From positions 77,691,891 through 77,755,890 of the forward strand of contig CM049317.1 of assembly GCA_026874595.1 (NCBI GenBank): a stretch of DNA of 64,000 nt, given 5' to 3'. Made by a program: the position numbers and the translations under genes. The notes below the pieces were generated by a model. That model was not told the DNA's origin. It saw only the letters and a list, made by a program, of their open reading frames with translations, and ran no database searches. The DNA comes from Sipunculus nudus. Lineage: Eukaryota > Annelida > Sipuncula > Golfingiida > Sipunculidae. Positions 17,709 through 55,478 of the stretch are shown here, piece by piece (the stretch's first letter is position 1; every line of letters begins with the position of its first letter).

Positions 17709-17722
17709 GACAAGTATGTAAT
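17709..17722. repeat. left target-site duplication of the LINE
   Basis: gacaagtatgtaat, identical to 21316-21329 and to the empty site at 13001-13014. Confidence 0.92.
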
Positions 17723-23119: not shown

Positions 23120-26100
23120 TTACAGCATGCTCCTTGGCCTCCTGGATCCCACAGCCCTCGGTTGAGTTGGAGAACTCGGCTCTGTTCCAAGCAATATGTT
23201 AGCCACACGGAGTTCTTTGACCGGGATTTTTTTTAGCCCCCTGGCCATGTTCTCGTAGTCATCTTGCCACTTCAGACTGGTCACTGGAGAGTATTTATGT
23301 AACGCCATCATAGACAACTCTGGCGCACGTTTCGGCAGAACTGGCCGTGGTTTATCTGGTCGCTGTGGTTTTACAAGACGGCCACATCCACCACACCGCG
23401 TGACCTCTGACATAAGCATGTTGTCGTAGTGGAGGTTGTTGTCTTCATTGCTCTTAAATATATATATATATATATATTAAACGTCAAAGTTTTGTATGGC
23501 AGTGTTCGTAAAGGTTAGTTACGACTGCCAATATTGGTTAATATTCTGACCATTGGTAGTCCATTTGAAAAAAAGGAGGAAGAAGAAAATTAACTTCAAT
23601 GTAAAATTCTGTCAGTTTTCGAAAGATTATAAGAGAAATTGAATTTTTGTAATAGCAGGTAGTAATAACTTTCCATTGTCTTCAATATAAATTCCTCTCA
23701 CATGTCCGCACATGGAGCATACATTCTTCAGAGACTACAGGGAGTTCGAGGTACTATTCACAAAAGATGATCCGTAGAACGTGAAACTGCTGTGCAGAGC
23801 TTGGCGTGGAGTGGGGATGCTGTCGTTTCTTCTCCGAATCACGGGAAGGAGATGAACTCTGTGATTCATTGGAAAATCGTATAACGGGAGAAGTGTAAGA
23901 AGCTTGAGTAATCAATCAGATTATCAGTGGGAGCAAAAATCAACCAATAAGTGTTAATTATGCAACACGTACATTCACGATTACATACACCTATACGAAT
24001 CCGTTTGAGAATTTATCAGGAAAATTACATTTCATCATTTACAATGGTCGATGGTAAACCTTTTAATAACTTTAGCTTTCTCCGATAAAATGATAATTAC
24101 CCTTTTCGTTTACAGTGTCGGTAGAGATGTACACCGATTGATATAAATAAAGCAAGTGCGAGTGGGAGGCATAGACTTGCAGGTCCGATCAGCCACCTGT
24201 GCATTGTTACGTCAGTTGCTGGCGCCTTCACGGCTGTTGAAGCTGGTAAACCATTACAATATCAATCTGATTAACTAATAAAATGGGCCTCGCTGGGTAA
24301 AAAAGTGTTATAAACGGCAGAATCTGTTATAGTGCTATTTAAGCTATAAAAGGTTTTGTACATTTCAAACAGGAAAATGCTATTTTATGAAATAATTTTA
24401 TGAATTGAAAATTCAATTTCATAAATCTGTAAGCATATGTTTATCATTGAATAATATTTTTGTTTCAATCAATTCAGAAAAAGGCAGCCGTACTGATTGA
24501 AAGATTATATAAAGTCGATGCTTCGTTGAATTCAATAAATAAGGGTCCATTGTTTATTGACTTTTCTTTTGGAACCACGTCTATAATCTGGCTTGCTCTG
24601 GGAAGACATATGGCGTTCCTGACAGACATACAGTCTGTTACTTTCCGGTTTGCCTTCCCTTTGCCAGATACAACGGCACATTTATCTGATTGGTTCTCCT
24701 GTCCAGCCAGCCAGCCATGCTTGATCACTGTAGTTAAAATAACGCTTACTGTAAAATCACTTTATCGACCTATTCTTCTTAAGCTAGCATAACATAACAC
24801 GGAAGAAATTAGAATACGTCATTTAATTAAGTATGCCTAAGTATTACGTATGCCTTGATTTGCGTGTGTGAAATACAGCATTCACTCTTTTTCATTTTTG
24901 TAACCACAACACTACTCCAGCTATATTTGCTGTGCCCTTAAAATTACATGGACAGTATTATGTTAATTTAATCAACCTTCTTTGCTACCAGATGGTTGTG
25001 TTAAAAAGGACAAACTAGCTAAAATACAGTGAATACAGAATATTTTGCTGAACTGATCATATTATGGAAACTGATATCTTATAGAACGAACTCAGATAAG
25101 CCTGGAAAAAGGGACGTCAATAAGTTCTTGCGGCTAAGCAAACAACACTACTCAAATATTCTTTCATTGGTATAAAGCCAGGAGAAAAACCTTATTATAC
25201 AAGTTGCTTGTATCTACACATAGGTATGCACATACCTACAATTTGACCCACTACCGTAACATATTCGATTTTTACGCCCATTCGTATACTACTATATATG
25301 TACTTTCTGTACGTTAATACTCGTAAAGTGCAATTTGGAATACCACAGTAAACAATAAGTAGATCTACTCTTTAAATGATGTCAATAGTCTAGACTGCTG
25401 TTTGTGGTGCTTTATATGCTGCTTGAAGAAACATTATGACAAGAGGAGACCAATCTATTTGAATTACGCCATTATTACGTTAACCATAGTAATGCTGAGC
25501 ATTGTTTCAACAAAAATGTGACGTAACAGGTTGACTAAAACGTTTGGTTAGCTAATGTCCACATTCTTTGACTTAATTTCACTGATGAAAATGATATATA
25601 TTTTAATACATTGACACGTACAGTAGCTATCACCAGCTTTCCATCTTTCCTTAGTCAGACCAATCCAGAATTCACTGCAGTTTCCTTTTCCCTTAGTATT
25701 CTTTCCTGAGATTTCTGTTGCAATGCCCAAAAAATTGTTCTCACAGAATTCGGCGGCCGAGTACCAGTCAACTAATTTCTGTGCACAGAATGGCATGTAG
25801 CATCTACCATTCTGTGTGAAACAAGCCTCCTCCTCGGAGCAATTAGAACATTCTGTTGTATAGAAATAAATGCAATTATTTGTATGTGGGTAGTTCAACA
25901 TGGTATATCACTCCCTGTATTACGTACCGTATTTCCTTGATCAGACGCCTAAGCTTTTATTTTTTACAGACTCTACTTTGATCCGGCGTCTAAACAAACA
26001 AAGCTTCAATTTAAAGCCTTTTTTTCTAAGACATTGTTTAGCCGCGGCCACTAAAGGTAGGCGACTATTTAAGGCCCGGAGTTTAATCAAAGAAATATAG

Positions 26101-26989
26101 TATATGGTAAACAATTTACACTTACTTTTTTCACACATGAAACCATCAACCTTTGTTGAACAGGAATTTGCATAAACCCCTTTACTTCGCAATCGTACAA
26201 AGCCACATTTAAGTTTCCGATTATGGACTCGAAGGGGCTTAGCTGTTGATAAAAGCAGATTATTATCTATCTACACGGAAATAGTTTTATTCCATTCTTC
26301 AAATAAATCATTAACAGTTTCTACACTTTGGATATAATAGTCGTTTAATCATTATTGAGATAAATAAATAAAATTTCACATAACAAGGTTGAGCTCTAAC
26401 CAGAAAGCATAGGATTTGACGTTTATGTAGAGGTCATTCGCTTCCAGACCTAGCCTATACCTTTTAAACTTTTCAAAATAACTGGATAATTTCCAATGAA
26501 ATAATAAAGTTTGCACGCTTACATCTCACTTCCTCAGCTTTGACATCATCGGACCACGAAAAGTTTGTTTCGTGACGCTCAATTCCAAGCCAAACACTGC
26601 CAAGGTTCGTTCGGTTCAGCATTTCCAATATCATTGAATCTACTTCCATTGGAAGAGTTTTATTCAATCGTTCACAGCTGTTGACGGCCTTGTTCCAGGA
26701 CATATTTTTCAGGAAGGTTATACCTGAAAACTTGTTACATTTTACCTTTTATGTTATGATTCATGGTTTCTAAATGGTGTATGTTATTGAAATAATCTGG
26801 GTGTTTGAAATCACCCACCACGAATACAACCTTTCTCGAAATTATGCACTTGTGGGAGAATTACCATGGATTGATAACAAATGTATTTGTAAATGATTTA
26901 AAGTCCTCACCGTCACTAGTGTAGTCATAGCCTGTTGTGTCGGCAGAAAAAAATACAACAACCCTGATCAAATGCCAGAGCAGGAGCAT
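23120..26989 (-). CDS. gene E: two-CTLD transmembrane receptor, nonsense codon in tail
   Basis: Predicted type I membrane protein. Exons (minus): 26911-26989, 26523-26723, 26126-26242, 25622-25852, 24494-24727, 24101-24242, 23702-23858 and 23120-23452. They sum to 1494 bp (498 codons) with consistent phases. Signal peptide MLLLWHLIRVVVFFSADTTG. CTLD1 (exons 2-3) has VWLGI and Cys pairs. CTLD2 (exons 4-5) has FWIGL, DKC, TDC and AIC, with no EPN/QPD sugar motif. Then come a short stalk and one TM (SLCLPLALALFISIGVHLY). A TAG at 23735-23737 (codon 376) falls in exon 7, before the first CxxC. It would leave about 40 tail residues. The exon 8 frame is intact (YDNM, CGGC, YENM). The acceptor of exon 8 is a (TA)n run instead of a pyrimidine tract. 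So E may make a short-tailed receptor or be an early pseudogene. Confidence 0.75.
25920..26104. mobile_element. MITE in intron 3 of gene E
   Basis: The ends are imperfect inverted repeats: taccgtatttccttgatcag on the left; on the right, the complement reads tatactatatttctttgatt. It is about 180 bp, AT-rich inside with GGCGTCTAA/GGCCCGGAG words, and non-coding. It lies within the E intron between exons 3 and 4 just before the exon 3 donor. I infer a DNA-transposon-derived MITE inserted at TA. Confidence 0.5.
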
Positions 26990-27030
26990 TGCGAATTTTC
27001 ACTTGGAGACTTAAGTTTTATCTTCCAGTT

Positions 27031-27042
27031 CTGTTATATACT
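27031..27042 (-). promoter_or_regulatory. possible TATA box of gene E
   Basis: On the minus strand the sequence reads agtatataacag, about 45-50 bases before the ATG at 26989. That would place a start site about 20 bases upstream of the ATG. This rests on position and motif only. Confidence 0.3.
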
Positions 27043-27059
27043 TAAGGAGGTATTGGTAT

Positions 27060-27790
27060 TCCGGCCATTCTTTGGGTTTTAAACTACCGTTGACCCTGGG
27101 CTCGGACTTATTGAGCAAAACCAGGTAGTTATGAAAAAAATAATGATGATAAATACTCTAAACAGGATAGACATTAAATTGTTCAGTGTATAATATAGTA
27201 TATTATTTTATAGAATAATTACACACATAAATAGACAAGTACGGTTACTGAGTCATCAGTTGCTACCTGATATTATTATGGACTAGGACATAAGCTGAAG
27301 TTTAACGAGAAGGGAATGAGTAGGTAAATACCAAGCTGCATGTGTAAATTTTTGTTAGATCAATTATGGGGACGAATTCTACAAAATAAACTGCATAATT
27401 CGTAACATATATAACTTATTGTGTATTTGCGCCGAAAGCTCTGCCACTTGCAACTGTTATTAGTACAGCTGACCAAACATAAAGAGTTTACTCCCCTGCT
27501 AGGTGATAAAGGATGTAAATATAACATTATGACAATAGATTGGTAAAGAAAAAATATAATAAAAAAGTTTGCTTTTTCTGTCTTTAAAAGAGAAAAGCTG
27601 TAATACACAACCGTTGGTAAGATATGTTTAGAAAAATTGGTTGTTTGCCTCGCTTTACCAGCATGCATGTTTTCACCCTATGTGAAGATAACTTGCACAG
27701 AATACCATACAGACCAAACAAAGAGTTGTTTAATAATATAAATAAAAGAAACATCCTAGTGGTTATAAATCTGTCGTGTTTATGATCTGC
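27060..27790. other. intergenic between genes E and F, nothing recognised
   Basis: AT-rich DNA with no exon resembling the array genes and no clear repeat end. Confidence 0.4.
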
Positions 27791-27794
27791 TATT

Positions 27795-28095
27795 ACTGCC
27801 GATCAGTGTCATCCAACGTTACCCTTTGCCTTCCTGGTGTTAGGGGCGTGCTCATTCTTGTAGTTTTTCTAAACCCCCTGAACAGCATACGAAACAAGCA
27901 GCCACAACAGGCACTAGGAGGTTATCCATTCTACACTCTGCCTGTCCCAATGACCAGCACCTGTTCGCTCCCAGCTGGAGAGAGCGGACCATTCTGGTTA
28001 AGACTTAGAAGAGGAGTCTTAGCACGGAAGGTGGTCAGATAGAACCCTCAACCTTGCGGTGAAAAGTCCAGCGCCGAAACCAATTAGTACTTTTT
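27795..28095 (-). mobile_element. tRNA-derived SINE (tRNA-Glu-like head), minus orientation
   Basis: Read on the minus strand from about 28095, the start ggtttcggcgctgg, ttcaccgc and then gagggttctatct resembles the A box, anticodon arm and B box of tRNA-Glu. The anticodon region is altered, so it is not a tRNA gene. A GC-richer body of about 230 bp follows toward 27800. The 88-residue plus-strand frame here is a by-product. Confidence 0.45.
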
Positions 28096-30807
28096 TTGTC
28101 CTTTTGAATTAAACCCTAACTTAAGAGCTGTGACGTCTAATAGATGGACTACTAAATAAAAGCACTCGGTGTAAATTGGTATCCCTAAACCTTGATTAAA
28201 CGATATAAAACGAAACTATTAATCAATGGAAAGATGCAAGCTGCATGATGGCATTTGAATTCATGTAAATTGTTATAGAAACAGAATATCACATTAATAA
28301 CACTTAAATGTGATAATCCTCCTACTCAAACGCTCATTGTACATTCAAACATAAAAATCTACATAAAAATGTATTGGTCCTGACAAAACACAAAATGGTT
28401 TCCAGATGCCTATAAACCTTGGTTGAGTCAGAGAACTAGTCTGAGTGGCCAACAAGAGGTTAGCCACACGTAGCTCCTTGACCGGAATTCTTTTGAGCCC
28501 TCGAGCCATGTTCTCGTAGTAATTTTGCCACTTTAGACTGGTCACGGGGGAATGTTTCTGTAACGCCATCATATACGATTCTGGATCCCGATTCGGCAGC
28601 CCTGGCCTTGGTTTCCCAGGTCGCTGTGGTCTCACAAGGCGACCACATGCACCACATCGCGTGACCTCTGACGTTAGCATGTTCTCATAGTGGATGTTGT
28701 CACCTTCAATGCTCTTATAAGGAAAGCGGCGTGTTAATAGCTACATTTTGTAGGTTACACACGGTATTGTGTAGGTTTTATTTCTTATTTAATCTTTATG
28801 ATGCTTATAATATTAAAATGTACCGAGTTATGAGCAATGTTTAGAACTCTAATTACTTTTTCAAGTAATTATAATTGCAATCGATTAAATTTTCTAATCT
28901 TTGAAAATAATTACTGTTTAATTCCTCTTAGATACATTTGACTAATACATAATTACATCTAACTTTGAAAGTGATTGAAGCATATCTGCCTATTAACAAA
29001 TTGCTGACGATTGTTACATTGGAACATATCCCGTTTTTAACTCAACAATGTGTCCGAGGTGTTATCTCTCTGCCGCCGTTCGTTCATTTGTTTGCAATCT
29101 TACTTCAGAAGAGCGTTTTTGAGGTAATCTGAATGGCTTTATGATTTTGTTTAAAAGATCCTTTACCCTTTAGGACATGGAGCAACTACGAACACTCTCA
29201 GTCACTGGTATATGAGAAGACACGTTTCTGCTACAGTTCACACCAGTAATAATAAACGCCTGTGTTGCCTAATTCGGCCTTACTTGGTGACGCAACCAAA
29301 GTGTTGTAATTGTGACACCTATTTCTAAAGGCAATATATTTCAAACTCTTACGATCATAATTTGATCAAGATGTAGGTGATATTCTGACATAGTGTGATG
29401 AATGATGACGTGTATATATATTTAATCTCTGAGAGCTTTAAAGATAGTTTCATTTAATTTAAATTGATTTAGTTAATTAAAAAAACATAATTATTTAAAG
29501 AAAAAAGGAAAAACAAATTAAAAAAATTTAACAGTTTTTACCGAGCTGACAAAGTTGATGTTATTACCACACTGTAAAAGGCCTATAAGCACATGGGTAA
29601 ATGCAATTACTTTCAAAGGTAACTGTTATTGTAATCAATCACCTTTCTGGTTACCAAAACATATTTGTAATTGATCATTTTAGAAGTATTCAGACCCAAC
29701 CCTGAATGATACACCATGTTAAGACATTACATGTTAACAACCCATGCTCTATTTTTTAATATTCTTTATGAGTTTCTGAATGGAAGCTAATTAGATACAC
29801 ACATTCCTCATTACCCCTGCTCAGACCTACTGACAATTACACCAACACTTATATGTAGTATGAATATATTCTCCCATCAAACTACGGAACTTGTGAAAGA
29901 AAATAGACATATTATCACTTAGCACACTAAACGGAATATGCTAGGAAAACTCAAAACACTGAAATATTATAAAATTAGTAAAGGACTTCTCAAATAACAC
30001 AAGCTCTACTCAGAATGAGATGCATCAACCTAAATTACCATATGTCCCTTTGGCATCTATTGCAGAATAGGTTCTGTCAAAGTGGACATCCAATTAAGGA
30101 CGAATACCATTTCTTCCTGTAAAGTCTTTTATGATCAATCCATAGGGATAATGACTTACCATCAAACATACCTGTACAAACTCTGCTGTTGGTTGAAGCC
30201 AAAATGAGTGAATATACAATTATTATTTGCCTGTGCTTCCTGGAAACGGGCTAATCTAAGCCCTCAGGCTTTCGCCTAAATCCTTTTATTGATACACTGC
30301 TTGATACAGTCATAGCATTTTGAACACTGTATGCGTATTGCATTCTACTGTATCAATAAAATCTTCTTTCAAACCTATAAAGAATATCCAAGAACAGAGT
30401 ATATACTCATCCACTTGATTTCCTACAAAATAAATCTCACCTGTCCACACATGGAGCACACACTCGCCTGAGACTTCGTTGATCCAGAGGTACTGCTGGC
30501 AAAAGAGGAGCCGTAGAACGTGAAACTGCTCAGCTCGGCAGGACGTGGAGGACGAGGAATTGGGTTCACGCTGTTTCTTCTTCTAACGAAAGGCACAACG
30601 TAATCTCTCCAGAAAAATGTGTAAGAAAAGGATAAATGTAAGTAAAACAATTAGAAAATAAGAACACTTGAAAATAAAGAATACACTTACGAAAAATGGA
30701 ACACTTGCAAAAATGATCACAATTAAGACCATACTGATATTTACCCCCCAAAAAAGAGACAGAAAATAATAAAACAATCCGAACACTTGAGAAAAGGAAT
30801 ATGCGGA

Positions 30808-30810
<3 letters not shown>

Positions 30811-30876
<66 letters not shown>
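30811..30876. repeat. (TA)n microsatellite in intron 6 of gene F
   Basis: Pure AT alternation of about 65 bases, between exons 6 and 7. Confidence 0.9.
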
Positions 30877-30877
<1 letters not shown>

Positions 30878-32264
30878 CCTGTTTTTACATTATATCAGTA
30901 TTTAGAAAATGCTTTATAATTATTTATTATATATTTTACTATAAATAAAAATAATAAATTATAATGACAATTACACTTTTCGGTTACAGAATCTGTAGAG
31001 ATGTATACCGATTGACACAATTAAACAAAGTGCCAGTGGAATACACAGAATTGCAGGTCCAATAAGCCATTTGTATACGACCACGCCACTTGGTTGTATC
31101 TCGACTTCCGTTGAACCTTCATCATTTGTCGTGTAACAGAAAATTATAATCAAAAACATCTACTACCTAAGCTGGCCTATTATATTCAGTTTTAGGACAG
31201 TACATTATTTATAATTCTCTTCAATACTTTAAAAGTATTTGTTTATTTATTTGTAATTTGTTATAATGAAATATCGATATGTAATTTTACAATTTAGATC
31301 ATATGAAATTAGTATTATGAAACAAAGTATACATCCATTATTAACACATATTTCAAACAACCTATTGTCAACGTACTCATGGAAATATTGTAAGCAGTTG
31401 AGTCTGCGATGGAATCCGTGGGATTTGGGAAAATAGTGAGAGCTATTTCCTTCTCGACCATGCCCCCACTTTTCTTCTGAAGCAATTCTGTAGTTGGGTT
31501 TAAATTAGGCAGACATATTGCGTTGCTAAGAGACTTGCAGTCTGAAGCAATCCAATTAGCTTTCCTTCTACCTGACAGGACGACACAGTCATGAGATTTG
31601 TTCTTCTGTCTGGCCAGCCAGCCATGATGGACCACTGCGAAAATTTATACCCTGATTGCGTAATTTTTGTCATGCATTACAATCTATATTAAACCTAGAG
31701 TTTAGATTTATCTCAATATTTTGGAAAATAATCTTATTACAACCCAAGGTCCTAGTTTGATGTGGATAGAAATGTAATCGATACATTTTGGCAATGGCAT
31801 CCTGACATTTTATGAAAACGTGAATCAAAATATGCATTACAAATGTTATATAGCTAATGCCCACGCTTAATATCCACATCGCCTTAATAGGTTGCTCAGG
31901 TTAGAGAATTTGTGGACCAAAGAATACAAGCGTCCTGCACATTAAAAGACACGTACTGTCAGCATCGTCAGCCTTCCATCTTTCCTTAGTCAGACCAACC
32001 CAGTATTCATCGCATTTTCCTTTCATGGTATATCCTACTATCTTTACTGTCGCAAGACCCGAATAATTAGTTTCGCAGATATTTGCGGCCGAATACCAGT
32101 CAACCTCTTCGCGTCCACAGAATTTCTTGATACATCGGTGGTTTTGTTTGAAGATGACCGACTTATAACAAACAGATCTTTCTGCAATATCAAAATAGGT
32201 GTTTTTTATGTGACTTCGGGACGATGTGTGATAAACGTATACATTTAAGGTCCTGAACAGTCAA

Positions 32265-32450
32265 GGGATAAAACGCTAGGCGCTCTCCCCAGGTAACTGG
32301 AATCGATCCAAGGCGTAGCTAGGAGAGTGAGCTGCAGTTGCTCGTCGAAGGTCGGTGGATTTATTCGGACCCCTCCAGTTTCCAAAATCCCCCCGAAAAA
32401 AAAAAACTACCGACCGCCACCATCTGAGCCATAGAGAGTGCTTTGCATTA
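32265..32450 (-). repeat. GC-rich repeat remnant in intron 3 of gene F, possibly a SINE
   Basis: GC-rich insertion (aacgctaggcgctctcccca, cgtagctaggagagtgag) with an internal A run (32398-32407). It contrasts with the AT-rich intron and has no counterpart in the same intron of E or H. The class is uncertain. Confidence 0.3.
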
Positions 32451-33332
32451 GTAATTATATGTATAATCGACGTGTAAAAAATAAAGTTAATATTAGATGT
32501 ATAAATATTGTACTTACGTTTGTTGCACATGAATCCTTTAATCTTTCTGGTACATTGAGTAGCATATAGGTCACCCCTATGTGTCCGTAAAACGCCCCAC
32601 TTTAGGGGCTTTTCATGGTTTCTAAAAGGCTCAACTGTAAATATAAAAAAGGATGATTTCATTTATACTAATTGTACCATGTTTACCTTTCATAATGTTA
32701 CTTAGCTGCCTAACGGATGCGCAAGGTAAAATGAATCAACCTTTTTAAATAAATAAACTGATTCGGAAATACAGTTAACTTGTAATCAGAAATTTTTGTT
32801 TTAAAAGGTAGTCATGTGTTTCTGTCATTTTCAGTATTATTTTTCATTGGAACGATAACGATGAAAACCCATGATACTATATGCATCTGTATCTTACGTG
32901 TTACACCATGTGCTTTTGCATCATCCTACCAAGACCAGTTCATTTCACGACGCTGAATTCCTAGCCAAACACCATCTTGGTTATTTTGTTTTAGGATGCT
33001 TAATACCGTGGGATCTTCTTCCACCGGCAGGGCTTTTTTCATTCGTCGACACTCTTTGACCGCCTCATTCCACGACACATTTGTCAGTACTGAAATTTCT
33101 GGAAAAGTATAATAGTTTACCTGTGAATAATGGTTTTTGCAACATTTTGCAATACTTTGCAAATTCTATTATGAGATGGTGGAATTCCTTATCAAGCAAT
33201 ATTGTTGGACCCGCCAAGTTTAATATTTTCGAAGAAAATAAAGCTCTTATCCTTACCATTGTGGTAGTCTTTGCCTTCTTTGTAGTCAGGAAAATATACA
33301 GAAATGGTCATCAAATGCCAGAAGAAAAGCAT

Positions 33333-34790: not shown

Positions 34791-34839
34791 GTTTTTAAAT
34801 ATTAAAATAAATATATATTGTTAACGGGAGATAAAAATA

Positions 34840-35929: not shown

Positions 35930-36419
35930 CAACTAAAACAAAATATCACGCAAAGTAAATGATTACTTTTTTTTGTGGACAAATCTCTTTGCATTGAAGG
36001 GCTGCATAAAGCTTAACACATGGTGTACTGTAGAGTCAGGGCTTTTTAGAGTATTTGTAAACTTAGCATTAAATGCTTAAACGACCGTCAGATCATGACG
36101 GGAGCAATTATATAAATAGAGTATATTCTGAAATTTCATCACCATATATTCTCGGGTAAACTAGTAAACATCCATTAATATTATCTGACGAAATTATGGT
36201 GACAAAACCAGCAATAGACTGCTTATCAGAACATTTGGACGCCATAACACAACACGCTCGTTCAACCCATCATATGTGGCATTTGTAATACTTATAACAC
36301 ATATAAGCATACTTGTCATACATATGTGGACAGCTGACCGATTATAATGAGTATACTTTTGTTCTCGGTGATAAATAATTTGGATGTAAACGTTAGAATA
36401 GTTAGGTATGGAAGAACAA

Positions 36420-39400
36420 CATATTATATAAAAGTATAGAAATCAATTATAGAAGTCTGCCAAAGAAACGATTTCATAAGATTAACAAGTAATGTAACAT
36501 TTAATTGTAAACGAATTTTCTTATATCAAGCTCAATTTGTTGAGTGTCATTTCTGGTCACGGCTGCAGCTGATGCTTTTATTTGTTTTTATGTTTAGGCA
36601 ACAAGGTGTTACTACTATAGGGGTGAGTTTAAAATAACACCTTATCTATAAAAGACGAATAACAAAAATATGTAATCCAAGAATCTTCTGTCGGTTCTCA
36701 TCCTTATACCTCATACCATTATAACATAGATTTTTCAGTTAGCCTTCACATTTGTTAACTGCTAACCTTAATATGTCATAATATACCAATATCTATATAA
36801 CACTGGGATAAGCCGTACAATAAGCGGATAGTGGTATCTAAATGACAAAGAAAACGACATAAAATTTATCATGAATATTTGATAACTTTTATTACAAAAA
36901 ATAATGATATAATATCCGACACACGCGAAAAATGACGACTTTTCTAAATGTATGTAACATAATTCACAACACATAGCTTTGATCCGTTTCTTTATTGGTA
37001 AATATCACATTCAAATAGTATATATACATTTAATTAAAACTAAAATAATATATACACGCATTAAATACCCATAGCAATTTTTGAAAGAGTGTTTTAAGTT
37101 TCTTGCCAAGGGATGTTATTATTAATAGAAGTTGTCAGTATTAACAATGAGATAACATAGTTTTATACAAGTGGCATACATATGCCGTCGAATCATAAAA
37201 GACATCATTTGGGGGAAATTATATGCCTTTGAAGATATATACTTAACCGCTTTTTTCATAAACTCGTGCTGTTAAAATGAAGAATCAAACTTATTATCAA
37301 AATGATGCATAAAATGAAGCATTAACTTATTGGATTAACCATGAATACGAGCTTTTAATATATGTACATGCAAAATTCATTTTGGTGTCGAGGGCAGATA
37401 TACTTTGAGAGTTTGCTTATTAAAATAATGTATCCTTCAACACGTTTTACTGAAGACGACTTACATACCTCCTCGTCATCAACTACACGATACTGCTGGG
37501 TCTCATTTTGCCCATGACCCGTTGTTGAGTTGGAGAACCGGTCTAGGTGACCAGCAAGACTTAAGCCACAAGTAGGTCCCTGACTGGAATTGATTTGAGC
37601 CCTCGTGCCATGTTCTCATAGTCGTCTTGCCACTTTAGACTGGCCACTGGAGAGTATTCTTGTAAAGCCATCACAGACAACTTTGACGCACGTAACGGCA
37701 GACCTGGTTTGGGTTTCTCTGGTCACCGTGGTTCACGAGGCGACCACAAGCTCCATGTCGCGTACGTGACTTCTGATATAAGCATCTTCCCGAAATGGAT
37801 GTTGTTATCTTGGTTGCTTTTTAAAAGGTAAACAATGTGTTGAAGGGAACATTTTTATGATGCAAGATTATAATTGACTCTTTTTGCGATGGTCTGTTTT
37901 TTTAATATATCACGTAATATATAATATGCCTAAATTTTGTTAAATGGGCTAGACTTTTCCTTTAAAATTTATCAAATGACATCCACAAGAAAGGCGTCAC
38001 AAGGAAAATCATGTTCTCTCTGATAGCATTCCCTTTTTGGTCCTGTTAGTTAATATGCATATTACAGCACACGTCATTAAACACAGTTCCTACAAGGTAG
38101 TTATATTTCTAGATCATAATCCTTTTTGTGCATAGAAAAAAGAAAATCGCTCATAATAGATAACATATTTTATTTTCGATAGGTTTTTCTTTAACACAAA
38201 AGGATTAGTGTAGAACATATTTCCATAACGCAATTATTAACCACTCATGCAAATACCCTTGATATGGATTTTGCTTATTATCAGGGAAAAAAAATATAAA
38301 AGTGTTATATTCCTATGAACGCAAATAGTAATTAGCAAATCTGTGTTTGTTTCAATAACAAATCCTCTAACCTGTCTACATATGGAGTCCACAATTTGCT
38401 GCCACTCCAGGGAGTTCAAATTACCAGTGGCAAAAGACGATCCGTAGAAAGTGAGACTGCTGTGAAGAGCGGGGCGTGGAGGGCGGGGACTCAGGTTATT
38501 ACGCTTTCTTCTCCGAATTTCAAGAAGGAGGATCTTCCATAAATAAAGAAGTGGGCAGGCGTATAACCTGAGTTGTAATTAATGAAACAAAATGTGTTCG
38601 CCACTTGCAAAAGCAAAATAAAAAAAATGAAGTAAATTCTTGCTATTTTCTTCCATCAATGGTAATTCGCGATACCACAGAAAAGGCTTCTGTCCCGTAT
38701 CATTATCTTTTTATGATATAATGATATATAATTACCCTTTCTGTTTACATTTTTGGTAGGGATCTATTTTGATTGACACGAATGAGACCCAAATAATTGG
38801 GATGCACAGACTTGCGGGTCTAATAATTAAGGCACTGTATTTTAAGCCACCACTCGGTTGTACTTCGCATCTTATTGACGGTCCCTTGCTACCTGTAAAG
38901 CCTCGTTATTGATCAAGCATAGGAAAATCATTAACAAAATTTAGCTAACTAAAGTTGACTGTTACACCAACACAAGTTGTATTAATCTAATCCGCTCTGA
39001 TATATTTACTATGGTTTATAACTATTTGTTCGAAGTATATGAATATTACTTGTCTCATATACACCTTTTATAATTGCAAGCAAACATGTATGACAACAGC
39101 ACAGTTTAAAATAAGTGAATGTTTTTTCAATATATAGATAGGTCAAATATATTTTGTTTGAGAATTTGGATTCATATCCATGAAAACAAATATCTGTATA
39201 TTTCAACGTTGTCTTATATTGCAAATAAATTATACAAAAGTATATCTTATATTTGATTCATTCCCGAAATAAATGCCTTCGGGTATAATGTTGAGTTTTT
39301 CTTCTCTGCGTTCCCCATTTTGACTTGATCTGGGCAAACATATAGCGTTGGTAGGAGTCTTGCAATCGGTAACATTCCGGTTCGCTATAGTCATAAAAGA

Positions 39401-41300
39401 CATGACGACGCAGTAATATGATTGAACAACCAGTCCAGCTAGCCAGCCATGATGGACCACTTGTCACATTATATATCGTAGAACACAAAGTATTAGATAA
39501 GCTCAACTGATTCATCATTGCCATCTTGAAATCATATTATAACCACAGTATTACAGAAGAAAGCTTATTAATTCACTAGGCATAACTTTAAACCAATATG
39601 CTCTATGATTCATCATTGCCAACATGAAATTATATTATGACCTCAGTTTTACAGAATAAAGCTTATGAATTCATTAGGGATAACTTTAAATATATAAAAA
39701 TAAGATATCATAAAAGTTGCAACAGCGCTTTGAATATATCATGATATAAACTAATATAAACCATAAACTGAAATTACGTGTTGATGTAACGACGTTCCTT
39801 TGGAAGTGTTTTACAAGAAAAATATAGCTACTACTGTACATGGTTTTAGTATTTTCGTTTTCTAAAACTAATAAATTATCATTGACACTTACTGTAGCCA
39901 TCAGCAGTTCTCCATCTGTTTTTAGTGAGACCCATCCAGTATTCACTGCAATTCCAAGTTCCGTTTATTCTCTGTTTATTCTCAGTCTCATTCATGTTTT
40001 TTGCCAGGCCCGCAGTGTTTGGCGGCCGAGTAACATTCAACCTGTTTGTTTGGGCAGACTGTCACGTAACATCTTCCGAGTTGTTTGAAACAGGTCGAAA
40101 CCAAACAACCAGAACACTCTGTCATATTGATATTTATGCCAGACACCGGATACTTACGACAAAATTACCTTTCAATACTCACTTCGGTTACATATGAAAC
40201 CAACAATCTCTGCGGAACAAGAAGTAGCATATATATGTCCACTCTCAAAACTTTGCACTTCATTCCATTTACATTAGCACGCAAATGCCGAACTAATAAT
40301 AAAAAAAAGTATTAGAGCTTTTAACTCTTTTATCTTTTTTATATTACATTTATTTTAGCTGACTTTTGGGGATTGAAATGGTATATATTACGTATTATAT
40401 TTAACTTTAAATAGACACAATAAGACTCATTTACAAAAACCTTAATCGAAAGTGAACAAACATGATATAGCAAATATGATACAAAGCAGTCATATTTTCA
40501 TTGATCGCGAGAAATATCATTAATTATTCTTAAGACAACGGCAGAAGTCTTGCGACATAAATACGGATATTACGTCATACAGCATGTGCCAGCGCATCAG
40601 CTAACAATGATCAGTTGATTTAATGATGCTCAATTTCCAGCCAGATTCATTCTATGTCAGTTTAGTTCAGAATGTTCAGCAAAGTTGAATCTAGTTGGAT
40701 GTGTTCTTTTTTTATCTTGTACAGTTGCTGACTGCTTCATTCAAATACACATTCCCTAGAATGGATATTACTGAAAATTATCACATTTTACCTTCTAACT
40801 AGAGAGACGGCTTGTTGCGACACACATTATGTATTTGAATATAATTTACTCTATTACTGCATGTAAATCAACCTGAGAACAAAAATAGACTGGTACAACT
40901 GGAAAAGAAGGAGTAATCGTACAATAAAATACCACAAAAGTTATCTATTGAATAAAGTTTGATTAGCAGATTGCACAAATTAAATGTAACCAAATGTAAT
41001 CACCAAGAATTATGTTGTCATAACCTGCTGTGTCCTCAGATAAAAACACCTAAAAAATACAAAAAAACTCTAAGCATGTGCCAGAGGAAAGCCATCATGA
41101 GTCTTTACGCATCAGGAATAAAGTTTTCTAGAATTCAGCCTGCACAAGTCTTCTTGTTTTATTTCCTGCCATGTATAAAATATACGTAAGAACTTTACAA
41201 CTGAGCTGTACCTTTGTTTCGAACTTCCTTGGTGTTATAAGTATTAGTTATCGCTGGTCCTGCATCAAAAGCAGCTACCTTAGAAACACTTAAAATTATT
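36420..41300. repeat. segmental duplication containing gene G (partner 45200-50590)
   Basis: Not only the exons but also the flanks match the H region. Shared words include agaaacgatttcat (36470 and 45220), ttggtcacggct (36551 and 45307), tgcctttgaagatatatact (37222 and 46289), and the upstream region (aaaatggggtcgacgataaatgg near 41310; a close version near 50555). The copies are clearly diverged, older than the 9.5-22.7 kb duplication. Confidence 0.75.
37490..41098 (-). pseudogene. gene G: decayed two-CTLD receptor paralogue
   Basis: All eight exon positions can still be found by similarity to H: 41004-41098, 40574-40770, 40183-40292, 39893-40118, about 39245-39459, 38736-38892, about 38372-38548 and 37490-37828. 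Lesions: an insertion with frameshift in the signal peptide exon; lengths 197, 110 and 226 instead of 201, 117 and 231 in exons 2-4; many stops in exon 2; a 4-base insertion (tacg) in exon 8 after the SEVT word; and a TAA replacing the Lys after LLVA. The first tail CxxC reads DSIC, and HYENM became HFGKM. DYENMARGLK is still visible at 37590-37680 in its own frame. Confidence 0.85.
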
Positions 41301-41826
41301 AAACCCCAAAATGGGGTCGACGATAAATGGCCAGATTAAAATAATTCATAATATATGATGATATTATTTCTTTATGATATTATGGTATTAACACAATTTA
41401 CCCATATCATAAAACCAAGACAATCAGATAGAAACTTCCGTAATAATGATAATGTGTTGTGTTACCTACATCCCTTAACCCACCCATAAGCAACAGCCAT
41501 GTATTCTTTAATTGTATAATGTGTCAACTGTACTTAAACGTTCATAATTCAGGTTTAATTAATTCACAATGCAGTGTCATGATTAAAACCAAACGCGTTT
41601 TGCTTATATTTGATCACATTTACAATATATATCACCACAGCTGACCAAAAAAGGCACAATAGACTTAAGTGTCTGTGTTCTATTAACTTGATGCAAACAA
41701 TGGAAGATTTCAATGGATTAATATAAAATATAGAGGAAAGTCCTAAACTTATGGTTCGCCTTTCTTAAAAATATAAATAAAATAATGAGTAATATTAAAT
41801 TATATAATGCCTGTAAATTAACAATA
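41300..41826. other. intergenic, nothing recognised
   Basis: AT-rich upstream region of pseudogene G; no exon or repeat end identified before the Tigger-like element. Confidence 0.4.
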
Positions 41827-41827
41827 C

Positions 41828-43266: not shown

Positions 43267-43396
43267 TATTTTCACAGATTGATGTATAAAAGAGACATGT
43301 CCTTTAAAAGTGTGTATATTCATAACTTTTCAGAATGAAAATATTAATCTTAATTCGATGAAATAATTACACACTTTAGATCGTTTAGATTCAGCC

Positions 43397-43434
<38 letters not shown>
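43397..43434. repeat. (GA)n microsatellite
   Basis: Alternating AG run of about 34 bases followed by gaggaggagg. Confidence 0.9.
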
Positions 43435-43435
<1 letters not shown>

Positions 43436-43569
43436 GAGGAGGATACGTGCTGCTACGATCACCTTTCATGGTGACATACAGATGGATGAATGTGTGAACT
43501 GGCGTTGGTGATGTTGACTGGTTAAAGCTTAGACAGCAATACTGTACTCCATTGTCAGAGACAAGTTCA

Positions 43570-44190
43570 ACAGAATGGCGCACAGTTTCATGATGAAACC
43601 CCATAAAAAACAGAATGCTAGCGACTATTCGTCAGAATATATAATACGGTCCGGGCTAACGAGATGTTTAACGGGTGAAATACTGTTGGGGATGATCATG
43701 TATGCCGGGAGTTTTCTCAGTTTTTTAAACAAAGAAAATGCCCATAAACTGGGGCCTCCATATATATTCGCCCGATACATTTTCCGCTTTCCTTCCAGAT
43801 GTGTTTCGTCGAGCTTGACGATGTAACCAACGCCACCGAGGACAGGAGCCCCGAGAAGAAAGGAAGAGAATAAATCTCGTGCGAAATTTAGTCAATCAGC
43901 CTCTGTGTCTAGTCTGGAATTCAGGAAATATCTTTGAATGAGTCTGACGAGTTCGGAACCTTTTGCGGCCACTGGCTTATTAATGTAAATATACATCTCT
44001 GTGAAACCTTTGACCGTTCAAAGGAGGAAAATTTCCTAACGGTGTCTCTATGCACTTTGAACATCTTAACAACTGACCGTGATTTGTTGAATGACTTTGA
44101 CATCCCTGGTATGTTTACGCGCTCTAACAAGGTCGCCCAAAGATTTGCCTTGGACACTGTTTTAACATCCAGGTGGGGCAACATTCTCCG
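43570..44190 (-). pseudogene. Merlin/ISXO2-like DDE transposase remnant
   Basis: On the minus strand, across at least one frameshift, the order of words fits the ISXO2-like (IS1595/Merlin) transposase: SFERSKVSQRCIFTLISQW (about 44020), a DTEAD-x-LNFARDLF helix (about 43900) corresponding to the usual DWxNFCRD word, then GGVGYIVKLDETHLEGKRK (about 43820). The last holds the first catalytic Asp. After that the match fades. Stops occur within. The family call is by eye from motif order, so moderate. Confidence 0.5.
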
Positions 44191-44966
44191 CAGGATGTCA
44201 AGTGTAATTGGTAATTTGCTTTAAGGGTTCTCGCCTAGGTATCACATCTCTTTTAGCAAACTCTTTAGCCTAACGTTATTACTAATTGAATTAGCAAGTT
44301 TCGTTGCAGATGACATCATATTTGTGTATTGATTAACTGTGCCGTACTTCAATGTTCGTCCAAACATCACTGTATACCTACATATAACATCGGCTGTGGC
44401 TGGTAATGGCGAGTAACCCGTTGCCGTAAAGAAGGCATGAGAAGTGCGTTTTTGAGTCGCATACTTTTATGTCGAGGGAGCACAGGTTTGTAACAGGATG
44501 TGAAGCACTTTTACCCTCTAGCACCATGTCTAGGCCATCTGAAGCTTAATCATATAATATATTTACAGTATTAGACAACATTTTATGTAAACGTAAGTAA
44601 CCTGAAGGTTCGTGCAGCCTGGATGAATAGTAAACAGCGTGGAGCCTAAACTGCCGAATGCCATATGATTTTCGGAGAGATTTTGCGACTATGGCGTTTT
44701 TGCTTGAACCTTTGTTAATTATTGAAACTGATTTGACTTGTAGGGCTGCTACAGGCTAAACACACAATACTGTATTCGTAAACTGAACATTATAAACGTC
44801 AAACGCGCGGGTGTTTATTGAACTTGCGAAATGTAGCATTTAGTTCATATATTGAAACTTGCGTAGATTAGATCGACAAGCCTCCTAAGTTTTCTCGCCA
44901 GTCCACAGTTCAATAAGTACAACGTCGATTTAGTAATATTTTTTTCTGCCAAGCAAAATAATTTTT

Positions 44967-45150
44967 AGCTCCGCTGACTGAAAGTCATCTGAGCGATAGC
45001 GATCATTCTTTGCCTGTCGCCCATCTGTCTGTCTGTCTGACAGTGGATTACCTTGTAACCATTAGACATTTCTAACTTAACACCCAGGGGGTCAATAAAG
45101 AGTCTCCATGGACACTTGAAATTTGTGTTATATTCTGTAATCGCATCATA
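44967..45150 (-). repeat. hairpin-ended dispersed repeat, inverse copy
   Basis: On the minus strand it reads a GACAGACAGA run, then aaagaatgatcgctatcgct, then the hairpin cagatgactttcagtcagcg and gagctaaaaat. This is the arrangement seen at 2735-2823 on the plus strand. Upstream words ggtgttaagttagaa and ggttacaagg also correspond. The right hairpin arm has mutated. Confidence 0.65.
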
Positions 45151-45864
45151 ATATATTCCTATTCTATATTCAAAAGTTCTTGAATATAAAAGAATGGAAT
45201 GCAATTAAAGACGTCCCCTAAAGAAACGATTTCATGAGATTAAACAAAGTAATGTAGTTGTAACAGATTTTTCTCATATCAAGCTAAAATTCTTCACTGG
45301 CTATTATTGGTCACGGCTACAGCTTGTGCTTCTATTTGTTTCGATGTCTGGCCAACAAGGTGTCACTGATATTCTGGTAAGTTTTAAATATCAATGGGAG
45401 AACAATATCTGAAATATAGAATACAGCAATCTTCTCCTGTTTCCTATCCTTAACCCTCCTACCATTATAAAACGGATTTTTTAATAAGTGTCCACATTTG
45501 TTATAAATGTGATAACTTTTAATATATCATAACATGATTAACTATATTATATATTATACACTCGGACAAACCGTACAATAATTGATATGTCGTTTACTCG
45601 AAGTCGCGTGATGCAGCGAGGGGCAATTCCTCTCCAAATAGTACTGGCATTGTCTAACGCATTCATCTAAGATCCATCTAAGTCCAGTATTTATCCCAAG
45701 AAAAAGAATATAATGCAACAATGGTAAATTAAGTCATTCTGCCTAGTTTTGATTAGCTGCTTACTCAAAACGGTATGTACTGCCATGTCTATTTTAAGTG
45801 CCGAATGGAACATAGCAAGTGGCTGGCTCCTTCATGAGTCTGTGTCAAATTATGGCGTGAGAGT

Positions 45865-45894
45865 ATATATGAGAGGAGTTGGAATGATGAATGA

Positions 45895-45946
<52 letters not shown>

Positions 45947-45984
45947 GCTCATTCATCATTCCAACTCCTCTCATATATATCTGG

Positions 45985-46064
<80 letters not shown>

Positions 46065-46065
46065 T
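45865..46065. repeat. 34-bp perfect inverted repeat around (TA)n, followed by a second TA expansion
   Basis: Left arm 45865-45898 (starts atatatgagaggagtt) and right arm 45945-45978 are exact reverse complements, separated by about 46 bases of TA. A second TA/TAAA tract occupies 45989-46061. On one strand this would fold into a long hairpin. Confidence 0.9.
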
Positions 46066-46433
46066 TATATGGATAGTGGATACATTTGTTGGTATCTAGA
46101 TAAAAAAAAACATATCGACCTTAAAAGTCATATATATTAGATAACTTTATTACAATAATAGTAATACAATTTATGATACACGTGAAAATGAAGTCTTATC
46201 AATGCCATACCAATATTAACAATACCGTAACATCTATTTATACGACTGGCACACGAATAATAAAAGACATCAATTGGGAGACATATAATGCCTTTGAAGA
46301 TATATACTTAGCTGATACATGACAAAACCCTATGCTGTTAAAATTATGAATCAAGCTTATTTTGTGGGAAAATGAAACATTAACATTTTGCAAAAAATAT
46401 AAACAAAAGCGTCTGATATATGAACATGCAAAT

Positions 46434-46439
46434 TTTATT
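46434..46439 (-). terminator. possible polyadenylation signal of gene H
   Basis: AATAAA on the minus strand about 100 bases past the H stop codon at 46537-46539. Confidence 0.4.
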
Positions 46440-46536
46440 CTGGTGTTGAGGTCCGATATACTTGGAAAATTTGCTAATATAATGCATTCTTCAACACGTT
46501 CCATTGAAGAAATATTCCATACGTCCTTGTCTTTGT

Positions 46537-49500
46537 CTACACAATACTGTTGGGCCTTGTTTTGCCCAGGGCCCGTTGTTGAGTTGGAGAACGGGTCTGC
46601 GTGACCAGCAAGACTTTAGCCACAAGAAGGTCCCTGACTGAAATTGTTTTGAGCCCTCGTGCCATGTTCTCGTAATCATCTTTCCATTTTAGACTGGCCA
46701 CTGAAGAGTGCATCTGTAGAGCCAACACAGGCGTTTTTGACGCACGTACCGGCAAACCAGGACGTGGTTTCTTTGGTCGCTGTGGTTTTACGTAGCGGCC
46801 ACACGCATTGCATCGCGTGACTTCTGATGTCAGCATATTTTCGCCATCAATAATGTTATTTTCATTGCTCTTTAAAGGAAAACAATATGTTTAAGGGTCC
46901 GTTTTATATAATGCATGATTATATATGACTCTTTCTGAGATTGTCTTTACTTTTTTAGAATAAATTCCTGAGTTCACTTATTTGTGCAATGACGGACTTC
47001 TGATAAAAGTCAAATGCGTTAAACATTTTCTTTCAAATATACGAAGTGATATCCACACTTATGCAACATTTTCACTAATGAAAATAAATGTTCTCATCTA
47101 GCTTTGTTTTCCGGCAATTTTATTTTATCTGCATATCTAAGTTTTGAGACTTTTCTTTAAGTCAAGATAGTTATACTTTTAGATCATAATTCTTTCAGTG
47201 TATAGAAAAGTAAAAATCACTCATAATAAATACCCATATTCTTAACTTCAATAAATTTTCTTCTCATAACAAAAAGGGTTGTAAGATAACATATTTTCAT
47301 AACGCACTTAATAAAAACCCTGCGGATATCCTCGATATAGATTATTCTTATTTCAGGAAAAGATGTGTTAGATTTCTGTAAAGGAAAAGATGTGTTAGAT
47401 TTCTGTAAATGAAAGTACAAATTTAAAATGTTATGTTTGTTTGCATAATAAAGTCTTCCAACCTGTCCACACATGGAGCACACACTCTCTTGAGACTGCC
47501 GAGACTGCGGGGAGTTCGAAGTACTGGTGGCAATGGACGATCCGCATAAAGTGAGAGTGCTGTGCAGAGTTGGGAGTGGAGGGAGGGTACTAAGGGTGAA
47601 ACTGTTTCTTCTTTCAATCTCAGACACATGGTAGTTTCTACAAAATATATTGCGGGTAGGAATATAATTTGAGTTGTAGTAATAAAACAAAATATTTGCG
47701 CCACTTGCTAAAAAAAATGTATATACGTTCATCATAACCTGCACCTGCACGCAGCGTATCGGAATATTATAAAGAAAATAGCTCTTTGTTACACCAACAG
47801 TAAGTGATACAAATGTAAAGGGGTTGTCCCGTATTATTTTTTTAAATAATAAATACCCTCTCCGTCTACATGTTCGGTACAGTTGTAGTCCGATTGACAT
47901 GGATAAAGCCAAAGTGAGCGGGATGCACAAACTTGCGGGTCCAATAAGCCACCTGTATTTTACTGTGCAGTCTGCTGTTGAGGGTACCTCGCTTCCTCCT
48001 AAGCATCGTAATGGACCAAGAATAAGAAAATTATTTACAATATTTAAATAACTAAAGTTAAATGTTACACCTTTCTAATGGGTTTACAAGGCAAACATTT
48101 ACTAGTTCAATCCTTTCTGTAAAATTTGTGTATGCTTAATTGACTGAAGTATATAAATATAACTTTTCTGATATAAACTATATATAAATATTATTTGGCT
48201 CATATAAACCCTTACGTTAGGCTGAAATTAGCTGATTTTTTTCAATATAGAATATCAGGCCAATATATATATTTTTTGATAATTTTGATTCATGAAAACA
48301 AACATATTAAACATACAAGTTGTCTTATATTGCAAGTGACTTATACAAAAACAGTTTGATTCGTTCGTGAAATAAACGCCCTGTTAAGAGGCTTTCTCTT
48401 CTGAATGACTTCACCAATTTCACTTGATCTTGGCAGACATATAGCAAAGGTTGGAGACTTGCAGTCTGAAACATTCCAGTCGGCCTTCTTCGTAAAGGAA
48501 ATGATGACACACTGATGGGATTGTACGGCAAGTCCAGCCAGCCAGCCATGATGGACCACTTGTGTCACATTATATATTTTAAAACAGTTGTCAGACATTT
48601 GTTCTTTCTTTAGCCAAATGAGATTTCGATGTCAACTTGAATTTACAGCATGATCGCAGTATTATTGGATATAGCTTGCGAATTTATTAGATATAACTCA
48701 TTAAACATACAAAAAAGAAGACAAATCTAGACATTGGCCAACATAAACTCATTATACAATTGTGGGTTTATATCCACTCTCAAGAACGACGTGCCCTTGG
48801 TGGGGTTTTACATCAAAATGGTTTTAATATTTTCGTAATATAAAACACTTAGAGATTATCAAAGGTGCTTACAGAATCCATCATCAGTTTTCCACCTGTC
48901 ATTAGTCAGACCCAACCAGAATTCACTGCAATTCCCTGATCCTATATTTCTCCCTCCTGTAATCATGTTTGTGGCGAGGCCCCAAAAATACTTTTCGCAG
49001 TGTTTGGCCGCCGAGTACCAGTCAACCTCTTTCTTTGGACAGATTTTTACGTAACATCTTCCAAGCTGATTGAAACAGACCGACTCCGAGCAATCAGCAC
49101 ATTCTGTCACAATGAAATAAAATCCATATATTTTATTTTCTTACAGACTATCTTATAACTGTTTACACTCGGCAAAATAATCTTTAAATACAAAATATTT
49201 GACTCACTTTTGTTACATATGAAACCTTTAATCTCTGCGGAACAAGGAGTAGCATATATGTGTCCACTCTCTGTTCGCAAAACACCACACTTCTTTCCTT
49301 TTATATAAGTCCGCAAAGGCAGAGCTATCAATAAAAATAGCGACAGAGTTACACAAACTAATCCTATGTCTAAATTCCTATAGGTTTTAACATTGTTATC
49401 TGCATAACATTACATTTATAGGAGCTAATGTTAAGCGGAGTTGAATTGTTAATGTGGTCAAGGTAAAATAACATAGACTATTATAATTATATTAAATGTT

Positions 49501-50348
49501 TAAAAATTCCTTCTCAAAAGGAAACGGACATTTTATAGCAGATTATGCACAAGGTAGTCATATTTTTCTAAATTATGGGAAATATGATTAATCATTCTTA
49601 TGACGATGGTAGAACTCCTAGGATAATAAAAATCTTACGTAATACAGCATGTGCCCGTGCATCATCTGACCATGACCAGTCCGTTTCATGATTTTCAATT
49701 CCTAGCCAGACTCTATCTAATTCATAGAGGTTCAGAATATTCAGTAAAGTTGAATCTACGTCCACTGGAAGTGTTTTCTTTAATCTTGTACATTGGCTGG
49801 CTGCCTCATTCCAAGATATATTTCTTAGTATGGACAATTCTGAAATTTGTTACATTATACCCTCTATTAAAGGTGCCCATTAATCTACCTTTTGAAAAAT
49901 AATTTATGTGAATTTTGCTTCGTATGTGTATATATGATTGATGTCAGAGTAAATTTGTTTGCGAAAAATTGTCTGGTCTATTTTTTATGAAAGCTCCAAG
50001 GGATTACCTTTAGTTTTTAAAGGTCAGATGGGTGATTGGGCTCCTTAAAGAGTGACGGGTGGTTGCAACTCACATTATGTTTTGTATTTGATGGTACTTT
50101 AAAACATTCTAGTGCATAGGAAACATCCGATGAAGAAAACGTAGCCTTATTGAACAATTGCCTCAGTTTGCCCAGGAGAACTAGATTGAACTAAACATCA
50201 CAAATGTCACCTAGCGGGTGAAATATTGGAATATTACTGCAAATGACAGTATGTAAAATGTCTCACCAAGACTGCTGTTGTCATAGCCTGCTGTGTCCTC
50301 AGATAAAAATACAAAAACTTTAATCAAGTGCCAGAGGAAAACCATCAT
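46537..50348 (-). CDS. gene H: two-CTLD transmembrane receptor, best preserved array member
   Basis: Exons (minus): 50267-50348, 49639-49839, 49208-49324, 48873-49103, about 48347-48558, about 47857-47987 (or 47998), 47463-47637 and 46537-46869. About 493 residues. Signal peptide MMVFLWHLIKVFVFL. CTLD1: SQC, VWLGI, KKC, TPC, FIC. CTLD2: RCYVKIC, KHC, FWLGL, HQC, the near-WND word DWNVSDC and AIC; no EPN/QPD. TM: WLIGPASLCIPLTLALSMSI. Tail: LPPLP, VCSMCGQ, RCNACGR, KPRPGLP, DDYENMARGL. The membrane-proximal tyrosine of E and F is lost (DGENM). Exon 5 with donor GTATAAGT (phase 0) needs the acceptor ending GCGAG at 47988. The acceptor used in the paralogues (exon 47857-47998, 142 bp as in E and F) would be out of frame unless an earlier donor (GTGAAG, about 48416) is used. 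No stop in any exon. Confidence 0.8.

Positions 50349-55421: not shown

Positions 55422-55478
<57 letters not shown>

Follow-up and report, generated by a model that had tools for sequence, protein, structure and literature searches.

What do the repeated lectin-like genes on the minus strand of this 64,000-nt stretch (the window, which sits on contig C12 of a 1.43-Gb assembly) encode, and could their cytoplasmic tail carry a signal into the cell? A first-pass annotation had described them as an array of receptors, with four paralogues, E, F, G and H, each encoding a signal peptide, two C-type-lectin-like domains (CTLDs), a transmembrane segment (TM) and the same two tail exons. Our reading, held with moderate confidence, is that they belong to a family of type I receptors with two CTLDs outside the cell and a conserved docking tail inside, the docking and zinc-binding roles of the tail being deduced from its sequence. 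What is observed is the gene plan, the conservation of the tail, the selection on it, a fixed spacing within it and the presence of many linked genes.

One eight-exon plan occurs four times between 50348 and 23120, in the order H, G, F, E: a signal-peptide exon, two CTLDs spread over four exons, a TM exon and two tail exons. Exons are numbered from 0 (signal peptide) to 7, with CTLD1 on exons 1-2, CTLD2 on exons 3-4 and the tail on exons 6-7. The exon classes of H were recovered in G, F and E by tblastn of the H exon peptides against the window, and splice borders were visible in exon-wise alignments of the copies. As annotated, the combination of two CTLDs, a TM and the same two tail exons was found in all of the following:

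46537..50348, minus strand: gene H, whose splice model (8 exons, phases consistent) gives 474 aa free of internal stops
Exons 0-3 of H, minus strand: 50348-50267, 49839-49639, 49324-49208, 49103-48873
Exons 4-7 of H, minus strand: 48558-48415, 47998-47857, 47637-47463, 46869-46537
37485..41098, minus strand: copy G, a pseudogene with stops or indels in exons 1, 2, 3 and 7 (e.g. TAA at 40714, TGA at 37725)
28345..33332, minus strand: copy F, with one in-frame TAG at 32928 in CTLD1
Exons 0-3 of F, minus strand: 33332-33257, 33098-32898, 32634-32518, 32181-31957
Exons 4-7 of F, minus strand: 31634-31377, 31116-30975, 30606-30441, 28713-28345
23120..26989, minus strand: copy E, interrupted in frame by a single TAG, at 23737 in the first tail exon
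Exons 0-3 of E, minus strand: 26989-26911, 26723-26523, 26242-26126, 25852-25622
Exons 4-7 of E, minus strand: 24727-24494, 24242-24101, 23858-23702, 23452-23120

Although the plan is present four times, the full protein is open only in H; a single stop interrupts each of E and F, and G is broken at many places. With one of four window copies intact, "array of receptors" is too generous a description of the window. The single TAGs of E and F may be genuine stops or sequence errors; that of E is 36 bases short of the 3' boundary of exon 6, and all the tail motifs described below (the two CxxC pairs, PxxP and the two YxNM sites) lie downstream of it. A frameshift at exons 4/5 of E was considered and withdrawn, since it disappears once exon 4 is extended to a donor that has its homolog in F. 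In the splice model of H, the phases into exons 0-7 are 0,1,1,1,1,1,2,0, and the acceptor of exon 4 (the fifth exon), ACACAAG, is weak-looking. The signal peptide is short and was called by eye, the hydropathy there being below the threshold of 1.5. In a 19-residue hydropathy scan the TM alone exceeded this value, and H, E, F and J (a copy outside the window, introduced below) have a single TM followed by basic residues.

The tail had been annotated with CxxC pairs, a K-x2-P-x2-P motif and Y-x-N-M, which are placed as follows:

47463..47637, minus strand: first tail exon of H, ending CSMCGQ at the donor (CxxC pair 1, from 47480)
46537..46869, minus strand: second tail exon of H, with DGENM, CNACGR from 46812, KPRPGLPVR from 46770 and DYENM from 46677
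28345..28713, minus strand: second tail exon of F, with HYENM, CGACGR, KPRPGLPNR and YYENM
23120..23452, minus strand: second tail exon of E, with HYDNM, CGGCGR, KPRPVLPKR and DYENM
37716, minus strand: KPKPGLP of G

The K-x2-P-x2-P peptides were exactly as reported (KPRPVLP in E, KPRPGLP in F and H, KPKPGLP in G). Copies E, F and H retain both CxxC pairs, the first (CSMC) closing exon 6 and the second (CGGC, CGAC or CNAC) lying in exon 7. In G neither is intact, one Cys of the first being substituted and the second scrambled by indels. The second YxNM site reads YENM in all four copies, while the first is kept in E (HYDNM) and F (HYENM) but not in G (HFGKM) or H (DGENM).

The same tail recurs well beyond the window. 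Searching the genome with H exon 7 gave 26 matches at E<=1, including the window copies H, E, F and G; 25 are on C12, within 77.62-78.29 Mb and 45.67-49.99 Mb, and the lone match on C17 (E 0.41, stop inside) was taken as chance. Twenty of the 26 tail exons are stop-free inside the match and six contain stops. Divergent copies lie ~28 Mb from the window, and a tail of this distant group used as query found 20 places at E<=0.1, all on C12. For the CTLD2 exon of H, there were at least 29 genome matches at E<=0.001. When paired by strand and order among the matches listed, 20 of the 26 tails have a CTLD2 exon less than 15 kb upstream. Because one tail shares its neighbor's CTLD2 exon, the distinct pairs number 19 of 26, all on the same strand with CTLD2 1.6-12.8 kb upstream; 10 of the 29 CTLD2 matches listed have no such tail. 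Exons of both CTLDs were found in eight of 15 stretches upstream of tails, the second exon of CTLD1 together with CTLD2 in one, and only fragments or tail exons in six. One relative, J (77.632 Mb, ~106 kb away), provides a second complete frame of 481 aa, with phases as in H, both YxNM sites and a TAG directly after its 481 residues. The 49.068 Mb copy was considered as a possible tail lacking lectin exons: its homology to that at 48.788 Mb ends ~100 bp above exon 6, but 12.8 kb upstream there is a CTLD2 exon carrying one TAG. The 49.516 Mb tail copy has no lectin exon within the 2.1 kb examined. Given the 19 pairs, the agreeing phases in H and J and the retention of the module in divergent copies, the assignment of the tail exons to a lectin gene, as first proposed, is well supported by the genomic sequence.

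We also noted some features of the family at other places on C12. Five tail exons at C12:49946129-49989659 are spaced by ~10 kb, each with a CTLD2 exon, and four of the five are near-identical and have Ser for the fourth Cys. Near-identical tails at this spacing suggest recent duplication at 49.95-49.99 Mb. Two related CTLD2 genes are without a Cys4-tail match: L062 (C12:45691500-45697300), with CASY at the position of the first CxxC, and L063 (C12:75725500-75730800), with candidate tail open reading frames (ORFs) bearing other tyrosines.

How much of the tail is conserved was examined by aligning 13 of the 26 copies over exon 7 and the last part of exon 6, with the rows chosen after the motifs were seen. 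Left out were G, the C17 match, the near-duplicates L015, L016, L021 and L023-L025, and the damaged or incomplete L009, L011, L012, L013 and L020. Identity to H is 25-32% in five of the 13 rows and 55-74% in the other seven. Among 95 columns (with at least 11 letters), 20 have at most one departure among the 13 rows: C6, C9, G10, Y20, N22, M23, R30, C31, C34, G35 and R36, followed by P40, R42, P43, P46, P48, P51, R53, Y79 and N81. The motif residues of the first-pass annotation make up 11 of these 20 columns, and the other nine adjoin them. Conversely, 11 of the 13 motif columns are conserved (hypergeometric 1.4e-7, relatedness and the choice of rows being ignored). The resulting pattern has CxxCG-x20-CxxCG enclosing a YxN, followed by PxPxxPxR and another YxN. 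The CxxC pairs are spaced by 21 residues in all 13 rows with the first YxN midway, and in the second pair and its Gly, Ser replaces the fourth Cys in one row and R the second G in one. At the first site, Y is found in 12 of 13 rows, N in 13 and M in 12, with L at +3 in the remaining row. At the second site, N is kept in 12 of 12 and M in only 6 of 11, with M, I, P, Q, S or the frame end at +3; the conserved second signal is therefore YxN, not YxNM. K occupies the first position of KxxPxxP in 9 of 13 rows while R53, after the last P, is present in 12 of 13, making PxxPxR as good a reading as KxxPxxP. Judged by these alignments, the tail is a conserved module.

Codon comparisons indicate that exon 7 is under purifying selection. 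The ratio of nonsynonymous to synonymous substitution rates (dN/dS), calculated over the six pairs of E, F, H and J and rough because dS is high in several cells, is 0.20-0.34 for exon 7, 0.20-0.57 for exon 6, 0.28-0.52 for CTLD1 and 0.33-0.56 for CTLD2. The nonsynonymous proportion (pN) of exon 7 reached the synonymous proportion (pS) in 0 of 1000 codon bootstraps in each of the six pairs. It reached the pN of the CTLDs in 0 (EF), 19 (EH), 0 (EJ), 79 (FH), 0 (FJ) and 70 (HJ) per 1000, so the constraint is stronger on exon 7 than on the CTLDs in most pairs, though not clearly in all. For the TM, the dN/dS of H versus J is 0.98 over 31 codons which, together with the missing tyrosine, gives a hint of relaxation in H.

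Outside the membrane, sequence similarity places the ectodomain in the C-type-lectin-like superfamily. Against the Pfam model PF00059 (Lectin_C; cut-off 22.6 bits), CTLD1 of H scored 36.3 bits and the E ectodomain 44.5. CTLD2 of F scored 36.1, with H just under the cut-off at 21.9 and E under it at 17.9; full-length H gave no Pfam match at E<=1. Classical Ca2+-dependent sugar-binding C-type lectins carry EPN/QPD-type and WND-type motifs. The E, F, H and J ectodomains show none, and the ligand therefore need not be a sugar. Mannose-receptor family members combine at least eight CTLDs with ricin and fibronectin II domains, unlike H and J, which have two CTLDs only, directly before the TM. After the TM of E, F, H and J there is no YxxL or YxxI of an immunoreceptor tyrosine-based activation motif (ITAM) or hemITAM; the sole YKWL, in copy F, sits at the start of the TM.

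In the mechanism we propose, a ligand would cluster the lectin-like domains, whereupon a Src-type kinase would phosphorylate the YxN sites. The first site, HY[DE]NM, could take Grb2-type Src homology 2 (SH2) domains through pYxN and p85 of phosphoinositide 3-kinase (PI3K) through pYxxM, the second, Y[EGK]N, would take mainly Grb2-type SH2 domains, and PxPx[LI]PxR would take a Src homology 3 (SH3) domain. According to excerpts of published work, DAP10 YINM binds p85 and DAP10 binds Grb2 via pYxNx (PMC5852076, PMC7226588), and CD28 YMNM and proline-rich motifs recruit SH2 and SH3 proteins (PMC5852078). The signaling role proposed in the first-pass annotation is still inferred, and is sharpened in that what is conserved at the second site is YxN, not YxxM, and that PxxPxR is kept besides [KR]xxPxxP. 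The C-x2-C-G-x20-C-x2-C-G element would most likely form a ribbon or knuckle around one zinc ion, with the loop presenting the first tyrosine. We infer zinc binding by the four cysteines (the Cys4 module) from the pattern, not from family membership, and two CxxCG knuckles at fixed spacing suggest one ion. Although the AlphaFold model of E exon 7 is poor overall, two short strands flank CGGCG and the best ten-residue block, with a predicted local distance difference test (pLDDT) score of 71, holds the CxxC turn.

Several observations weigh against a docking and zinc-binding tail. Three of the four window copies are broken, and H, the intact one, lacks the first YxNM tyrosine. Elsewhere, L009 (an open frame) keeps HYENM, pair 2 and YGN but has PGLQLC at the PxxPxR position, L011 (also open) has neither the second Tyr nor the initial Cys of pair 2, L012 carries stops and reads HCENM, and L022-L025 have Ser for the fourth Cys. 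The SH2 and SH3 motifs are short and degenerate. No Pfam zinc-ribbon model reached its cut-off, the best of those listed being DZR (16.6 versus 27.3 bits), and the tail had no significant match in PDB (best E 0.2). The AlphaFold mean pLDDT was 52 on three sequences, and exon 7 alone was too poor for a fold search.

Searches for known relatives of the tail gave nothing at the thresholds used in PDB, viral contigs and prokaryote contigs outside its own genome. With Pfam also searched, the annotation's statement that no described C-type lectin family has this tail stands for these collections. Among the literature matches listed, as excerpted, no lectin with this tail appeared, and no paper was found on YxxM in invertebrate C-type lectins of hemocytes or on a zinc ribbon combined with phosphotyrosine in a lectin cytoplasmic tail. 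Profile matches to archaeal Rpo12 in PDB (E 0.63 and 6.1) were not significant. Zinc-ribbon proteins such as Rpo12 likewise have a pair of CxxCG-like knuckles with a basic stretch containing proline after them, but homology is not established, and the spacer here is longer and holds YxNM. A likeness of the exon 7 segment GLKxIPVKEL to the juxtamembrane segment of receptor tyrosine phosphatases was set aside, as no such PDB match was found and the five alignment rows most distant from the rest do not have the segment. A phmmer match of CNACG to a GATA-type finger (E 0.86) was taken as chance.

The conserved tail could instead serve uptake. YxxPhi is a clathrin-adaptor signal for which N at +2 is not required. 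In an endocytic or phagocytic lectin receptor, Y[DE]NM would be such a signal and the proline motifs would bind endocytic SH3 domains, with uptake and not signaling as the outcome. The first site fits, its +3 residue being M in all but one of the 13 rows, where it is L, but the N at +2, unneeded for YxxPhi, is kept in all rows at both sites, and YxxPhi is not kept at the second site, where +3 varies as described above. We regard uptake as an unlikely explanation. Less probable still is a zinc clasp, in which the CxxC pairs would bind zinc together with a partner, either a second receptor chain or the N terminus of a kinase, and the tyrosines would be secondary. The four Cys are conserved and the chemistry is known, CD4 and CD8alpha likewise having cysteines in the receptor tail that bind zinc jointly with Lck; however, as described in the excerpted source, these use CxCP, whereas here two CxxCG at a fixed 21-residue spacing in one chain would suffice for an intrachain site (PMC12198760). 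A decaying relic cluster, whose tail has no present function here, is similarly improbable: E, F and G are damaged, H lacks one tyrosine and has the TM dN/dS of 0.98 versus J over 31 codons, and six of 26 tail matches have stops inside, but H and J are open throughout, 20 of 26 matches are stop-free, exon 7 is under purifying selection and recent duplication is suggested at 49.95-49.99 Mb. Mere decay would account for E, F and G but is at odds with J, with the tails open elsewhere and with the selection result.

A second type of tail is found next to the receptor-like copies, in a neighboring gene:

54885..58874, minus strand: gene I, an apparent two-CTLD and TM gene, from ORFs read by eye

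Its tail has TYLEI, RPPRPLPEIP and QVYIPAP and no Cys4 module. Lectin_C matched one of its three candidate lectin ORFs at 16.1 bits, below the cut-off of 22.6, and the other two not at all. The gene I tail exon has 18 genome matches including itself, all on C12 and in the same two regions as the Cys4 tails; the two tail classes are therefore interleaved in both. In an alignment of the gene I tail with nine of the 17 other copies, TYxEI is kept in 9 of 10, PLPEIP in 8 of 10 (the remaining two having PLPVIP and PLPEIQ) and QVY in 8 of 10.

Elsewhere in the window, 60587-64000 is a 32-bp satellite of ~107 copies with 99% matches and very strong GC skew, which runs off the window. Long open frames at 17673-21125 on the plus strand are, by eye, a candidate reverse transcriptase of the long interspersed nuclear element (LINE) type, and ORFs near them are repeated at 10.7/15.5, 12.4/17.1 and 14.0/22.3 kb.

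Returning to the proposed docking tail, its function would by analogy resemble that of CD28, or of the NKG2D-DAP10 pairing but with the motif in cis. NKG2D is a type II protein with one CTLD whose YxNM lies on the partner chain DAP10, and CD28 has an immunoglobulin ectodomain and no Cys4 module. The NKG2D-DAP10 complex of vertebrate natural killer (NK) cells, in the excerpts available, likewise couples C-type-lectin-like recognition to YxNM recruiting p85 and Grb2; here, in contrast, a single type I chain carries the motif together with two CTLDs, and Cys4 and SH3 motifs are added. CD28 similarly has a short tail with YMNM and proline-rich motifs, as the excerpted paper describes (PMC5852078). 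Bivalve C-type lectins with a C-terminal TM (CgCLec-HTM, ScCTL-1) are likewise membrane-bound according to partial texts (PMC12842671, PMC10140915), a likeness relevant only if the host is a bivalve; bivalve repertoires of these lectins are described there as large and expanded (PMC10140915). CgCLec-HTM is listed as single-domain, compared with two CTLDs here, and in the available main text of the 2025 bivalve C-type lectin review that lists it, some members have a C-terminal TM and the terms cytoplasmic, ITAM, tyrosine and SH3 are absent (PMC12842671).

A bolder extension, which we consider doubtful, is that the tail is a zinc-ribbon loop with a built-in phosphotyrosine site, such that metal or thiol redox would gate the phosphorylation or binding of YxNM and, with two interleaved tail classes behind diversifying lectin-like ectodomains, the clusters on the chromosome would form a receptor complex, an independently evolved counterpart of vertebrate NK receptor complexes. 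What would be new, already in the simpler reading, is a lectin-like receptor that combines a tail of the co-stimulatory type with an extra Cys4 module. How membrane lectins signal inward has rarely been worked out outside vertebrates, and a conserved tail with defined docking motifs, in a one-chromosome family, offers a short testable peptide. If the docking reading is true, wiring like that of CD28 and DAP10 would have been reached here with a different ectodomain and an added metal module.

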